A stretch of DNA of 64,000 nt from Desulfovibrionaceae bacterium. GTDB lineage: Bacteria > Desulfobacterota > Desulfovibrionia > Desulfovibrionales > Desulfovibrionaceae. Where the stretch lies: contig CAJTFO010000007.1 of the NCBI GenBank assembly GCA_910575755.1, forward strand, positions 1 to 64,000, read 5' to 3'. The notes below the pieces were generated by a model. It had not been told where the DNA came from and did no database searches. It worked only from the letters and a program-made list of their open reading frames with translations. The translations under genes and the position numbers were made by a program. Positions 13,568 through 50,697 of the stretch are shown here, piece by piece (the first letter of the stretch is position 1; every line of letters starts with the position of its first letter).

Positions 13568-14176
13568 CTATTCGTCCGCTCCCAGCACAAACTCCAGCAC
13601 GGCGTCGGCCAGCAGGGCGGCGGCTTCGGTCACGCGCGGGGCCAGGGGCGGGGCGGTGAGGACGTCTGTGCTGAAATCCCCCACCAGGGTCAGACGCCCC
13701 AGGCGGCGTTTCTGCATGGCCGGGCCCCCGTAGCCGCCCATGCCCGATGCGCTGGCCACCATGTGCCCGCCCAGCAGGGCGTGTTCCACCAGCATGGTTT
13801 TGGCCTCGGCGTCGTCCAGAGCCTCCACCCAGATGGGGCAGGCGGGCAGGATGTCCGGCAGGTTGGCCGGGCACAGGCGCAGACGACGCGCCTCCACCCG
13901 CATGTCCGGATTCAGCTCGCGCAGCAGATCCGCCAGGGCTTCCACCTTGGGTCTGCCCAGATGGCGCGGCCAGTATTGCTGGCGGTTGAGGTTGGAGGGC
14001 TCCACCACGTCGTGATCCAGCAGCAGCATATCTTCTATGCCGCAGCGCGCCAGCATGAGCGCCGCGTTGGAACCCAGGCCCCCGGCGCCGGCCAGACCCA
14101 CGCGCGCGGCGCGCAGCCTGTCCAGTTGTTCCGGCAAAAGATAACGGCCCAGGCCGTCACGCAGACTGTTGGCCAT
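13568..14176 (-). CDS. thiF: sulfur-carrier adenylyltransferase ThiF (short form)
   Basis: A 202-residue E1-like enzyme that adenylates the C-terminal glycine of ThiS using ATP. The nucleotide-binding loop GLAGAGGLGSN is near residue 27, and LNRQQY follows with the conserved arginine. It lacks the zinc-cysteine tail of longer E. coli-type ThiF, as do other short ThiF proteins encoded with thiH in anaerobes. It is the last gene of the thiS-thiG-thiH-thiF run, 19 bases after thiH, so it should be under the TPP riboswitch. Confidence 0.9.
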   Translation of the reverse strand: MANSLRDGLGRYLLPEQLDRLRAARVGLAGAGGLGSNAALMLARCGIEDMLLLDHDVVEPSNLNRQQYWPRHLGRPKVEALADLLRELNPDMRVEARRLRLCPANLPDILPACPIWVEALDDAEAKTMLVEHALLGGHMVASASGMGGYGGPAMQKRRLGRLTLVGDFSTDVLTAPPLAPRVTEAAALLADAVLEFVLGADE

Positions 14177-14195: not shown

Positions 14196-15311
14196 TCAGG
14201 CCGCCGGGTCTTCCCAGTCCTTGAGCACGGCCTGATAACCGTTGGCCGCCAGAGCGGCGGTCATCTCCGCAAGGCTGCGGCGGTCGGTGATTTCAAACTG
14301 GCCGGGATTGTGCTTGTCCTCCGTGGCTCTGCCGCCCACAGCCGTGGACACGCCCGCGGATACGCGGGTGACGCCCAGCGGCACCAGATGGTCGCGCATG
14401 AAGGCGCTTTCGCGGCTGGAGCAGGTGATGCCCGCGCGCGGCAGAAAACAGCGCAGGGCCGTGACGTACTGCGCCAGATGCCGGTCGTCCACGGCGTGCT
14501 GCACGTCAAATTCGCCTTCGTGCGGGCAGATGCGCGGAATGGACACGCTCACGTCCACGCCGGGAAAGTGGCGTTGCAGCCACCAGGCGTGCAGACCTGT
14601 GCAGAAGGCGTCCTGCTCGAAGGATTCCAGACCCAGCAGCGCGCCCAGTCCCAGAGAGCGCATGCCCGCGCGCGCCGCGCGTTCCGGCGCGTTGAGCCGG
14701 AAGCCGTAGTCGTGCTTGGGGCCCACGGGATGCAGCCAGGCATAGAGTTCGGGATTGTAGGTCTCCTGAAACATGGTCATGGAGTCCACGCCCGCCTTGA
14801 TCAGCAGGCTGTATTCCGCCTCGGTGAGCGAGTAGACCTCCACGCCCACGGAGGCGAACAGCGGCTTGATACGCCGCGCCACCGAGGCCATGTACTCCGG
14901 CGAGGAGAGCTTGGGAGCGTCGCCGGTGAGCAGCAGCACATGCTGAAAGCCCATGTCGGCGATGGCCCTGGCCTCGGCATAGGCTTCGTCCACGCTGAGA
15001 TGGCGGCGGGCCTGCTTGTTTTTGGCGTTGAAGCCGCAGTAGCGGCACTGGTTGGTGCAGACGTCCGAAATGTACAGCGGGGTGAAGATGTTCACGGCCC
15101 GCCCGAAATAACGCAGGGTCAGATCATGCGCCTTGCGGGCCATGCCTTCAAGATGCTCCCCGGCTGCGGGAGAGAGAAGGGTCAGAAAATCGGCGGGTTG
15201 CAGCGTGTCTTTGTTCAGCGCGGCCAGCACCTTGTCCGATGTGGCCCGGGCCACGCCCTGGGCCCGGCGTTCAGCGGGCCAGGACTGCAAAAAATTCTGA
15301 AAATTTTCCAT
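14196..15311 (-). CDS. thiH: 2-iminoacetate synthase (radical SAM, tyrosine lyase)
   Basis: A 371-residue radical SAM enzyme that cleaves tyrosine to dehydroglycine (2-iminoacetate) and p-cresol for thiazole formation under anaerobic conditions. The 4Fe-4S motif is CTNQCRYC near residue 85, with a C-terminal ThiH domain containing RICPHEGEF and ASRESAFMRD-like sequence. Normal length. It lies between thiG and thiF in the riboswitch-controlled operon. Confidence 0.94.
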   Translation of the reverse strand: MENFQNFLQSWPAERRAQGVARATSDKVLAALNKDTLQPADFLTLLSPAAGEHLEGMARKAHDLTLRYFGRAVNIFTPLYISDVCTNQCRYCGFNAKNKQARRHLSVDEAYAEARAIADMGFQHVLLLTGDAPKLSSPEYMASVARRIKPLFASVGVEVYSLTEAEYSLLIKAGVDSMTMFQETYNPELYAWLHPVGPKHDYGFRLNAPERAARAGMRSLGLGALLGLESFEQDAFCTGLHAWWLQRHFPGVDVSVSIPRICPHEGEFDVQHAVDDRHLAQYVTALRCFLPRAGITCSSRESAFMRDHLVPLGVTRVSAGVSTAVGGRATEDKHNPGQFEITDRRSLAEMTAALAANGYQAVLKDWEDPAA

Positions 15312-15338: not shown

Positions 15339-16109
15339 CTAGCGCAAAAAGCCCGTCAGCGGCGAGGAGGCTTCCGCGCCCTCGCCCCGCGCCCTGACCG
15401 CGCCCGCGCCCGCCAGCCAGGCGTTGCGTCCGGCCTCCACGGCGGCCCTGAAGGCCGCGCCCATGCGCACGGGATCGTCGGCCGAGGCGATGGCCGTGTT
15501 CACCAGGCAGGCCGCCGCGCCCATTTCCATGGCCTCGCAGGCCTGGGAGGGGCGGCCGATGCCCGCGTCCACCACCACGGGCAGATCCAGTTCCTCAATG
15601 AGAATGGCGATCATTTCCCTGGTGCGCAGGCCCCGGTTGGTGCCGATGGGCGCGCCCAGCGGCATGACCGCCGCAGCCCCGGCCTCCACGCAGGCGCGGG
15701 CCACATACAGATCGGGATTGATGTAGGGCAGGACGGTGAAGCCTTCCCTGGCCAGCACTTCCGTGGCTTTGGCGGTTTCATAGCCGTCGGGCAGAAGGTG
15801 GCGGGCGTCGGAAATGACTTCGATTTTGACCCAGTCGCCGCAGCCCGCGGCGCGGGCCAGACGGGCCAGGCGCACGGCCTCGTCCGCCGTGCGCGCGCCA
15901 GAGGTGTTGGGCAGCAGGCGCATGCTCCGGGGAATGTGGGCCGTAATGCCCTGCTGGCCTTTCTCCACCCGGCGCATGGCCACGGTGATGACCTCCGCGC
16001 CGCATGCCTCGGCCACGGCTGGAATCAGGCTGTCCGCGCTGTATTTGCCCGTGCCGATAAACAGACGGCTTTTCAGGGTCACGCCGCCGACCACAAAGGG
16101 ATCATTCAT
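15339..16109 (-). CDS. thiG: thiazole synthase
   Basis: A 256-residue TIM-barrel enzyme that joins deoxyxylulose phosphate, dehydroglycine and ThiS-bound sulfur to make the thiazole phosphate. The Schiff-base lysine lies in WVKIEVISD near residue 92, and phosphate-binding [11 protein letters not shown] comes later. The start at [10 protein letters not shown] (16109) gives normal family length. It follows thiS by 56 bases. Confidence 0.95.
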
Positions 16110-16165: not shown

Positions 16166-16366
16166 TTAACCGCCGCCCACAAACTGCACGATTTCAAGCC
16201 TGTCGCCGTCGCGTAACCGCGTATCCGCGAACGCGACGGCGGGAACAATGTCCCCGTTATGCTCCACTACCACGGTTTTGGGGTCATGCCCGCGCGCGCG
16301 CAGCAGATCCGCCACGCTGACGGCCTCAGCGCAGGTTTCGGTTTCGCCGTTGACGATTACATCCAT
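16166..16366 (-). CDS. thiS: sulfur-carrier protein ThiS
   Basis: A 66-residue beta-grasp protein ending in FVGGG, whose terminal glycine is thiocarboxylated and donates sulfur to the thiazole. The start at MDVIVNGE (16366) is preceded by GGAGG; an upstream extension of 50 codons would run through the riboswitch terminator and is rejected. It is the first gene of the thi operon, 25 bases downstream of the putative terminator. Confidence 0.94.
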
Positions 16367-16380
16367 GTCACCCCTCCGGA

Positions 16381-16416
16381 GAACAAGAAAGCCCGCAAAC
16401 CGGAATGTCTGCGGGC
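16381..16416 (-). terminator. riboswitch-controlled intrinsic terminator before thiS
   Basis: On the minus strand a 7-base-pair stem GCCCGCA/TGCGGGC (16416-16391) is followed by TTTCTTGTT. It stands between the TPP aptamer and the thiS ribosome-binding site, so ligand-controlled termination is the likely expression platform. The mechanism is inferred from position. Confidence 0.65.
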
Positions 16417-16443
16417 GAGCGCGAACCTGCGGCGGCAGGTCGG

Positions 16444-16577
16444 CCAGCTTCCCTTCGTCAGCACTATCTGCGTCAGGTGCAGAGCCGCTTTTGAAATGGC
16501 AGCATTTCAAAAGCAAAATGCTCTAGGGGTCAGGGCGCGCACACCCTTTCTCAGCCGTGGCAGGCTCCCCCAGCCGG
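16444..16577 (-). promoter_or_regulatory. TPP riboswitch with a palindromic repeat in the P2/P4 junction
   Basis: On the minus strand the P1 halves CCGGCT (16577-16572) and AGCTGG (16449-16444) pair over 6 bases. The conserved core follows: GGCTGAGA after a short P3, a P3a-like GGG/CCC hairpin, then GACCC, and later ACCTGA and GAAGGGAAGC of the P4/P5 arm. These are the hallmarks of a thiamine-pyrophosphate aptamer upstream of thiS. Between GACCC and ACCTGA the usual few bases are replaced by a 44-base palindromic repeat (16481-16524), which belongs to a family dispersed in this window. Confidence 0.85.
16481..16524. repeat. palindromic repeat, family A, copy inside the TPP riboswitch
   Basis: The arms are AGAGCCGCTTTTGAAATG and CATTTCAAAAGCAAAATGCTCT-like sequence, nearly self-complementary over about 18 bases. 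The same core TTTGAAATG/CATTTCAAAA recurs at 39866-39912, 41972-41999 and, in half form, at 50632-50675. It sits exactly in the junction of the riboswitch. Confidence 0.85.
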
Positions 16578-16939
16578 GAAAAAACGATAGTCCCGGCGCG
16601 GCAAGAATGCAAGAGGTCTTGTGCGGGGCTGGCAGACTGAGGCATCCAAAACCAGCCATCCTGGCAATCGCATGGGCAGACGTATCCAGTTGAGATTATT
16701 GAATGCACATTTTCAAGGCAGTGAAATTTCACTATGTTGACGGGGATCAGCAATTGCCCTGTCCAGCATCCGCCTGCGCTTGCCAAAGCGCCCAAAGGGC
16801 GTTATGTATATCGCCCCTGTCTGATATTCCCTTCAGACAGGATAAAAATTGCGCGGCGTCCGTAAAGGTCAGGCCCTGCCGGTCAGCCCGGCGACAGGCC
16901 GCTGAAGCCAGGTCCGGCCGGCCGCGACGAGGTTTTGCC
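16578..16939. other. intergenic region between thiS leader and rpmE
   Basis: About 360 bases hold the promoter region of the leftward thi operon and of the rightward rpmE gene. Visible elements are a perfect 12-base palindrome GTGAAATTTCAC at 16721-16732, a TTGACG at 16737 without a convincing -10 partner, and an 8-base-pair stem CCTGTCTG/CAGACAGG at 16816-16841 in the probable rpmE leader. No gene is supported. Confidence 0.4.
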
Positions 16940-39765: not shown

Positions 39766-39865
39766 TATGCTGTTCACCTTCTCCCCCAATTCGGTTGCTG
39801 TTTTATGCTAAGTCCAGCTTTACCGGCTTGAGAGAGGGTGAACAGCCTGTTGAAACATTACAGCC

Positions 39866-39912
39866 AGAGCATGTTGCTTTTGAATGTTACCATTTCAAAA
39901 GCAATATGCTCT
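39866..39912. repeat. palindromic repeat, family A copy
   Basis: Arms AGAGCATGTTGCTTTTGAATG and CATTTCAAAAGCAATATGCTCT-like sequence are complementary over about 20 bases around a four-base centre. It is the most complete family A copy in the window. Confidence 0.88.
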
Positions 39913-39921
39913 GATGTTTTT

Positions 39922-41890: not shown

Positions 41891-42100
41891 GTCTCCTCCC
41901 TGATCTCTGCCGGGCCGGAGCGGTGACGCTCCGGCCCGGCTTCATCCTGAAGCCTGACCCTGGGATATTTTGTTTTTGAAATTTCCCCATTTCAAAAACG
42001 GCGCTGCAATGAGCCTGGAAAGCGCGGTTTTCAGGCTCATTGGGCGCGGGCGTCCGCTCTCACGCCCGCCGGGCAAGTGCTTTCTTAAAGGCAATTCGCT
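41891..42100. other. dctP-dctQ gap with nested palindromes
   Basis: Two perfect stems are present: GTTTTTGAAAT/ATTTCAAAAAC (41972-41999, family A core) and CAATGAGCCTG/CAGGCTCATTG (42007-42042), the latter extended by outer GCGC pairing. The stretch TTTCAAAAACGGCGCTG and later CGTCCGCTCTCACGCCCG also match 50660-50695, so the whole block is a dispersed repeat. Confidence 0.75.
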
Positions 42101-43102
42101 CTAGTTTTGCCCCATGATGGCCAGGGCATCGTCCAGCACGGCCTTGCCCCCGATCACGTCATAGTACCGGGGCCAGATGCTGCGGGCCTTCTTTATCCAG
42201 ATATCCTCATCCTCAAGATCATTGACGAGCATGCCATGTGCAAGACACTCCTGAAGGGCCTTCCTGTCCTGCTCTTCCGCCCAGTCCCACATCCACAGGG
42301 CCGCTTCGCGGGCCGCGCGGTCAAAAAGCTCTCTGACGTCGGGAGACAGCTTGCGATACCAGCGTTCGCTCACCAGAATGGGGGCCACCCACACCATATA
42401 GTGCACATTGGTGATGTATTTCTGCACTTCCCAGAACTTGGTGTCCCGGTTCAGATCATTGGGATTTTCCTGACCGTCGATGACGCCCTGCTGCAGGCCG
42501 TTGAAGGTTTCAATCCAGGACAGGGGGTGCGGTTCCACGCCCCAGGCCCGGAAGGTGTTCAACTGCAATTCCACCGGCGGCACGCGCCACTTGAGGCCCT
42601 GCATGTCTTCCAGCTTTCTGATGGGGCGCCTGGAATTGGTAAGCACGCGATAGCCGCTCATCAGCCATGCCAGAGGGCGGGTGCGGCTTTGCCCGGCTAT
42701 CCTGTCCGCCAGATTGTCCATCATGTTTTTGTCGCTGAAGAATTTGCGGGCCATTTCCTTTTGGGGAAAAAGGTACGGCATGATGACGAGTGTGGAACTG
42801 GGCGCAAAAGGCGTGAGGTTGCCGGCGGCCATGACGCCTATCTGGATGCTGTCGCTGCGTAACTGCTTGACGGTGCTCTGTTCGTCGCCCAGAACGCCGC
42901 CGTAAAATTTTTCAAAGGTAATTTTGCCGCCTGATTCCCGCTCCACAATCTCCGCAAGCTTGTCCAGCGGTGCGGCCTGAATGGCGCCTGGGGGCGTCGA
43001 ACAGGCCATGCGGACATTCATTTTTTCATATTCCGCCGCATGGGCGGAAGCGCCCCAAAGCACCAGGGTCACCAGGAAGAAGCATAACTTGATACTGTTC
43101 AT
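42101..43102 (-). CDS. dctP: TRAP transporter substrate-binding protein (DctP-like)
   Basis: A 333-residue periplasmic binding protein with signal peptide (CFFLVTLVLWGASAHA). The DctP signature LKWRVPPVELQ near residue 165 contains the conserved arginine that holds the solute carboxylate, and GVIDGQENPNDL follows. The arginine suggests an acidic organic substrate. It lies 20 bases after the thiamine-diphosphate enzyme gene, so enzyme and uptake system are expressed together. Confidence 0.93.
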   Translation of the reverse strand: MNSIKLCFFLVTLVLWGASAHAAEYEKMNVRMACSTPPGAIQAAPLDKLAEIVERESGGKITFEKFYGGVLGDEQSTVKQLRSDSIQIGVMAAGNLTPFAPSSTLVIMPYLFPQKEMARKFFSDKNMMDNLADRIAGQSRTRPLAWLMSGYRVLTNSRRPIRKLEDMQGLKWRVPPVELQLNTFRAWGVEPHPLSWIETFNGLQQGVIDGQENPNDLNRDTKFWEVQKYITNVHYMVWVAPILVSERWYRKLSPDVRELFDRAAREAALWMWDWAEEQDRKALQECLAHGMLVNDLEDEDIWIKKARSIWPRYYDVIGGKAVLDDALAIMGQN

Positions 43103-50631: not shown

Positions 50632-50697
50632 GGAGCATTGTGCCTTTGATGCTCCCGTTTCAAAAGCGGCGCTGTCGTCCGCTCTCGCGCCCGGCCG
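50632..50697. repeat. family A half-element upstream of the VUT gene
   Basis: GGAGCAT/ATGCTCC arms (50632-50656) are followed by CGTTTCAAAAGCGGCGCTG and CGTCCGCTCTCGCGCCCG, which match the block at 41989-42070 with an internal deletion. Its right end adjoins the -35 element of the promoter at 50702. Confidence 0.7.

Follow-up and report, generated by a model that had tools for sequence, protein, structure and literature searches.

Analysis of the window (the whole 64,000-nucleotide stretch of DNA under study) indicates, with a probability of roughly 0.78, that the thiS leader represents a TPP riboswitch whose mode of control is probably transcription termination, that the left terminal hairpin of an IS630-family MITE has taken the place of its genus-specific J2/4 helix, and that the aptamer should remain able to fold and to bind TPP. 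The aptamer and the genes and putative signals surrounding it are the following.

16433..16581, minus strand: TPP riboswitch aptamer of the thiS leader (Rfam RF00059 and genus model R1)
16584..16612, minus strand: putative promoter, TTGCAT-N17-TATCGT (conserved sequence, identical in sister species G019)
16381..16416, minus strand: intrinsic terminator upstream of the thiS start, with a 10-bp stem (16416-16391), conserved in G019, and a T-rich tail
16166..16366, minus strand: thiS, sulfur carrier protein (TIGR01683 thiS, 77.7 bits; PF02597)
15339..16109, minus strand: thiG (assigned from its sequence and its location between the thiS and thiH genes)
14196..15311, minus strand: thiH, 2-iminoacetate synthase (TIGR02351, 462.7 bits)
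13568..14176, minus strand: thiF, ThiS adenylyltransferase (NF006395, 207.5 bits)

The first-pass annotation had recognized a TPP aptamer with intact P1-P5 in this leader and had proposed the Rfam TPP covariance model as a check, which gave a divided result. The aptamer was not recovered in a whole-window Rfam scan at the curated cut-off of 54.3 bits, which it misses with the 28.3 bits (E 0.00097) obtained in a permissive local scan, and the leader (L030) gave no RF00059 match at E 0.01 in a search of stem-bearing leaders. A covariance model constructed from 18 leaders from relatives, with the window left out (R1), matched positions 16576-16441 with 88.8 bits (E 3.7e-21, R1 E-values being rough because the calibration was short), covering all 114 model positions with no non-standard pair marked, and this was the sole R1 match within the window. 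By this model the leader possesses the conserved aptamer sequence and helices P1-P5 of its relatives, and both the aptamer assignment and the intactness of P1-P5 were borne out. Since the same cut-off fails stem-bearing leaders of relatives and passes a stemless one (L037), the thiS leader is called a TPP riboswitch on aptamer conservation, as judged by sequence and model, and on gene context, with the RF00059 threshold as a stated exception.

Behind the aptamer, the minus-strand gene order is thiS-thiG-thiH-thiF, in which thiS, thiH and thiF were recognized by NCBIfam models, placing the leader upstream of thiamine genes. No NCBIfam match at E 1e-10 was obtained for thiG, which has 73-95% identical copies in almost every genome of the genus. 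The terminator is likely to constitute the expression platform, and control is probably exerted by transcription termination. The promoter is a reading of conserved sequence, and was not among the promoters listed by the promoter scan.

The segment between P2 and P4 and the related repeats in the window are as follows.

16479..16526, minus strand: J2/4 segment of 48 nt, a single hairpin between GACCC and ACCTGA (sequence and predicted fold)
16481..16524, minus strand: 44-nt repeat hairpin, equivalent to the left terminal hairpin of the IS630-family MITE (from repeat copies)
39865..39913, plus strand: stand-alone single-hairpin relative of the repeat, with 20-nt arms that are 95% complementary
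41962..42103, plus strand: MITE copy of nearly full length, flanked by two TRAP-transporter-like genes (L158)
50632..50675, plus strand: left-end fragment of the MITE (L165)

The J2/4 segment was predicted to fold with an energy of -21.3 kcal/mol (z -4.65), and the 44-nt hairpin at 16524-16481 reads AGAGCATTTTGC...GCGGCTCT, exactly where it had originally been placed (16481-16524). Its membership of a dispersed repeat family, also claimed at first pass, was confirmed: the arm AGAGCATNTTGCTTTTGAA occurs in 28 copies in the 2.8-Mb genome (up to 2 mismatches; none for a reversed-pattern control), the relatives previously noted at 39866, 41972 and 50632 are real members, and the hairpin core is present three times in the window, compared with zero expected from shuffles. 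The nearest genomic copy of the thiS-leader hairpin, L002, is identical to it at 44 of 46 bases. Across the genus, a 21-base arm (up to 3 mismatches) was found in 47 of 79 genomes, with zero control matches in each genome; genome G025 alone contains 266 such matches.

A chance hairpin was ruled out by the shuffles, the arm count against its control and the match to L002. That a native stem had drifted, by chance or convergence, to a repeat-like sequence is practically negligible as an explanation; genus J2/4 stems and repeat ends do have a TAGRRC-like base in common, but the agreement with another copy contradicts convergence, none would be expected in shuffles, and the corresponding stems of sister genomes occur once each and show no sequence relationship to the repeat.

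The hairpin at 39865-39913 is intergenic and has near-perfect ends (AGAGCAT/ATGCTCT). The 3' end of a minus-strand ORF (42101-43102; TRAP-type binding protein) overlaps the GCTCTA terminus of the MITE copy at 41962-42103, and as that copy ends in GCTCTA at this point, the TAG of the element appears to supply the stop codon.

Aligned copies define a modular element of ~148 bp with three hairpins, which typically starts with AGAGC and ends with GCTCTA; among seven genomic copies measured end to end, five are 148 bp long and the others 130 and 144 bp. At the thiS locus the left hairpin is present without the remainder of the element, and such truncation to the first hairpin is seen elsewhere too, as several other genomic copies also lack the later modules. 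In G025 (L200-L219) the family is strongly expanded, with nearly identical copies and nested inner modules; these copies have an identical 40-base first hairpin, for which 62 exact-pattern matches were obtained. Full copies were found to be flanked by TA, with TA on both sides in 13 of 15 scored G025 copies and on the left side in 30 of 48 copies from both genomes.

IS630-family transposase genes were found in both the window's own genome and G025, one from the former (L273) matching NF033545 (IS630 family transposase) with 196.3 bits. The right end of the G025 IS630, in reverse complement, reads TAGAGCATTTTGCTTTT... and agrees with the MITE left end at 17 of 17 bases, so that a terminal sequence is shared with an IS630 transposon of a near genome, as expected of an IS630-family MITE. 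The left end adjoining the IS630 transposase of the own genome, TAGAGCAATTTGACTTTT, is related to the MITE end. Because the repeat end is that of an IS630 and IS630 transposases are present, the repeat was called an IS630-family MITE, and the transposase that moves it would presumably be of this kind. Like other IS630-family MITEs (Tc1/mariner superfamily), it is short, is flanked by TA and shares an end with an IS630 transposon of a related genome; what differs at thiS is that only the left hairpin is left, built into an RNA helix.

Two other classes were considered for the repeat. A CGTC-tagged REP was entertained since CGTC is present in some copies, where it precedes the second palindrome as in the published CGTC-tagged REPs (PMC3733652); this was dropped, as the repeat ends match IS630 and not REP. 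For those REPs, the same paper reports no dedicated transposase. A RAYT-mobilized REP was likewise dropped, the ends being TAGAGC/GCTCTA and not a GTAG tag. Y1 transposases do occur in the own genome, and the loci fetched around them contained no matching pair of TAGAGC/GCTCTA ends.

The first-pass annotation also held that P2 and P4 are normally separated by no more than a few bases and that the hairpin would add a fourth arm to a three-way junction. Neither view applies to this genus, in which a hairpin is normal at this position and relatives already carry a covarying, single-copy stem; the event is therefore a replacement (35 nt for 15 nt, compared with G019). Among thiS-type leaders of relatives, 38 have a J2/4 stem of 19-30 nt and six have 4-7 nt. 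A second, lower-scoring leader class, whose own-genome member precedes thiC, has a J2/4 of ~4-5 nt, and J2/4 measures 1-6 nt in the leaders sampled from outside the stem-bearing Desulfovibrio group.

The native hairpin of G019 is CTAGAACCGCGCATGCGCGCGGCTCTGC. Native-stem cells are paired in 97.3% of cases, compared with 28-52% for slid controls, and 22 cells have changed on both sides versus a shuffled mean of 6.6; the covariation score was reached by 0 of 500 shuffles, a control that kinship can inflate, while the slid control retains kinship. The native stem is single copy in each of G019, G007 and G025, the three genomes covered by the search for repeats of a genome's own J2/4 stem, and the stems of these three were not found in the window's genome. 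By-eye comparison with the MITE repeat revealed no repeat-derived J2/4 among the 38 stem-bearing leaders. An unrelated conserved stem in related leaders, which the annotation had named as counter-evidence to its reading, thus exists in the relatives but not in the window leader, whose stem is nearly identical to another repeat copy.

In the thiG tree, the window genome (G000) and G019 are sisters (support 100/98), with G007 and G025 next at less well-supported forks. Given the native stem in the sisters and this tree, a stem already present gave way to the MITE hairpin on the lineage leading to this species, as seen in one genome in a comparison with one genome per species. By sequence comparison, the J2/4 stem is old in the genus and its present sequence is new in this species alone. 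It is distinctly unlikely that the genus helix is itself an exchangeable socket, founded in the genus ancestor by a TAGAGC-type mobile hairpin; if so, riboswitches would have gained helices from mobile hairpins on two or more occasions, the present replacement being a recent repeat of an old event.

The genus helix also has a bearing on annotation. All six tested stem-bearing leaders scored 33-42 bits with RF00059, below 54.3, and the stemless L037 scored 54.7, above it. Standard annotation therefore likely misses these TPP riboswitches, indicative of an annotation gap in which the J2/4 helix is the likely reason that the tested Desulfovibrio thiS riboswitches fall under the Rfam cut-off. Examples of sub-cut-off, stem-bearing thiS leaders are L031-L034, L053, L220 and L227. 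Compared with RF00059, the window leader has the same conserved P2, P4, J4/5 and binding-site sequences and thiamine operon context, and differs by an extra J2/4 helix that is nearly genus-wide, mobile-element-derived in this species and accompanied by a sub-cut-off score.

Comparison with G019 located the exchanged tract and a possible insertion site.

16487..16521, minus strand: MITE-derived 35-nt tract replacing 15 nt of the G019 native stem (alignment and boundary comparison)
16523..16526, minus strand: CTAG opening the J2/4 segment on its 5' side, also found in relatives; putative TA insertion site (alignment)

The tract comprises 35 nt (GCATTTTGC...AAAAGC) where G019 has 15 nt (ACCGCGCATGCGCGC), a net gain of 20 nt, and is bounded on the left by CTAGA and on the right by GGCTCTGC. 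The right boundary is common to G019 and G007, whereas the usual element has GGCGCTGC; one other genomic copy, L141, also carries GGCTCTGC. IS630-type elements target TA and duplicate it on insertion (PMC2170065), and preferential insertion into the TA within CTAG was reportedly described by Tenzen and Ohtsubo in 1991, going by the title as listed among the references of that paper. Most likely, the MITE would first have entered at the TA within the CTAG, at the foot of the native stem. Deletion or recombination between GCGGCGCTGC of the element and GCGGCTCTGC of the native 3' arm, via the short shared tract GCGGC-CTGC, would then have eliminated the native 5' arm along with the remainder of the element. 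The remnant hairpin would close with six basal pairs, and for this reason the junction would keep its topology, with the aptamer expected to remain capable of folding and of binding TPP. Insertion followed by loss appears to be the simplest route suggested by the boundaries, gene conversion between hairpins would fit equally well, and no intermediate of the two-step origin was found.

These boundaries also bear on an assembly artefact, i.e. a hairpin joined to the leader in error. The genome is a draft of 61 contigs, and a second record of the replaced leader was not found among viral contigs; nevertheless, an artefact is extremely unlikely, as common read lengths exceed the 46 nt of the repeat and there is an exact fit to the native sequence at either boundary.

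Beyond the exchanged helix, the leader is almost the same as that of G019. On the 3' side of J2/4, the two agree at every one of the next 99 nt, up to and including the terminator stem, compared with a summed thiG branch length from this genome to G019 of ~0.07 changes per site (~7%), which would fit either continued selection or an event too recent for decay. In the predicted aptamer fold, the hairpin adds one more arm to P2-P5 and a closing P1, all of which form together, while the lowest-energy structure of the longer leader, which is less clear, has different pairing partners for parts of P1 and of the basal stem. The TPP junction is described as a k-junction that makes no direct ligand contact and is exchangeable with binding partly kept (PMC10573300); by our own mapping, J2/4 would correspond to its bulged strand.

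The alternative pairing in the long-leader fold, together with an R1 score below those of relatives (88.8 versus up to 120 bits), could be taken to mean that the replacement harms the riboswitch, a very stable hairpin misfolding the junction so that TPP control of thiSGHF is lost or changed. We consider this rather unlikely: no change is seen in any conserved aptamer base, in the promoter-like site or in the terminator stem, the aptamer fold is predicted to retain its helices, and most of the score loss would be expected from the length of the unmodelled insert. Conversely, the perfect 13-pair upper stem, longer than the native stems seen in the relatives' leaders, might have been selected for an added role, as an RNase III or pausing site or through a shifted ligand response. 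This is very unlikely, the hairpin being confined to one species, with no conserved loop or motif and no insert-specific sign of selection. The findings as a whole are best read as a mobile-element hairpin that has become a tolerated helix in a working riboswitch, with ligand binding presumably maintained.

Peripheral helices at tolerant riboswitch sites have been described previously. Barrick and Breaker (2007; PMC2258182) report an optional P3a in TPP riboswitches and 'variable insertions' at tolerant riboswitch sites, which are likewise peripheral stem-loops that spare the core; P3a, however, adjoins P3 and does not lie between P2 and P4, and a mobile-element origin is not described in the available part of that paper. 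The exchange of the TPP k-junction for that of DUF-3268 (PMC10573300) concerns the same junction and keeps binding in part, but it is an engineered chimera with binding about ten times weaker, and the portion of the article at hand describes no such P2/P4 helix. The BOX element of Streptococcus pneumoniae (PMC3049150) is another case of a short mobile repeat lying in a riboswitch leader whose control seems to have survived, although it sits between two T-box riboswitches and not inside one aptamer. A search of the open-access literature, a scope that most subscription papers fall outside, revealed neither a genus-wide TPP J2/4 helix nor a transposon hairpin, repeat or MITE inside a natural aptamer, which is not proof of absence. 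The thiS leader would represent a rare visible case of mobile DNA as a structural part of a regulatory RNA. The sister species, with near-identical riboswitches containing a native J2/4 stem and a transposon hairpin, respectively, form a natural before-and-after pair, making testable both the freedom of a riboswitch junction to change and the role of mobile DNA as a source of regulatory RNA parts.

Possible empty sites that might reveal the TA duplication were also compared. The G019 sites look empty and are too diverged for the duplication to be read, and the orthologous G007 sites hold other short hairpins. Two of the latter, L264 and L268 (orthologous to the own-genome MITE copies L010 and L005), are short TAGAGC/TAGAAC...GCTCTA hairpins located just after genes; as other hairpins occupy the same sites in G007, hairpin-for-hairpin exchange may be common in the genus.
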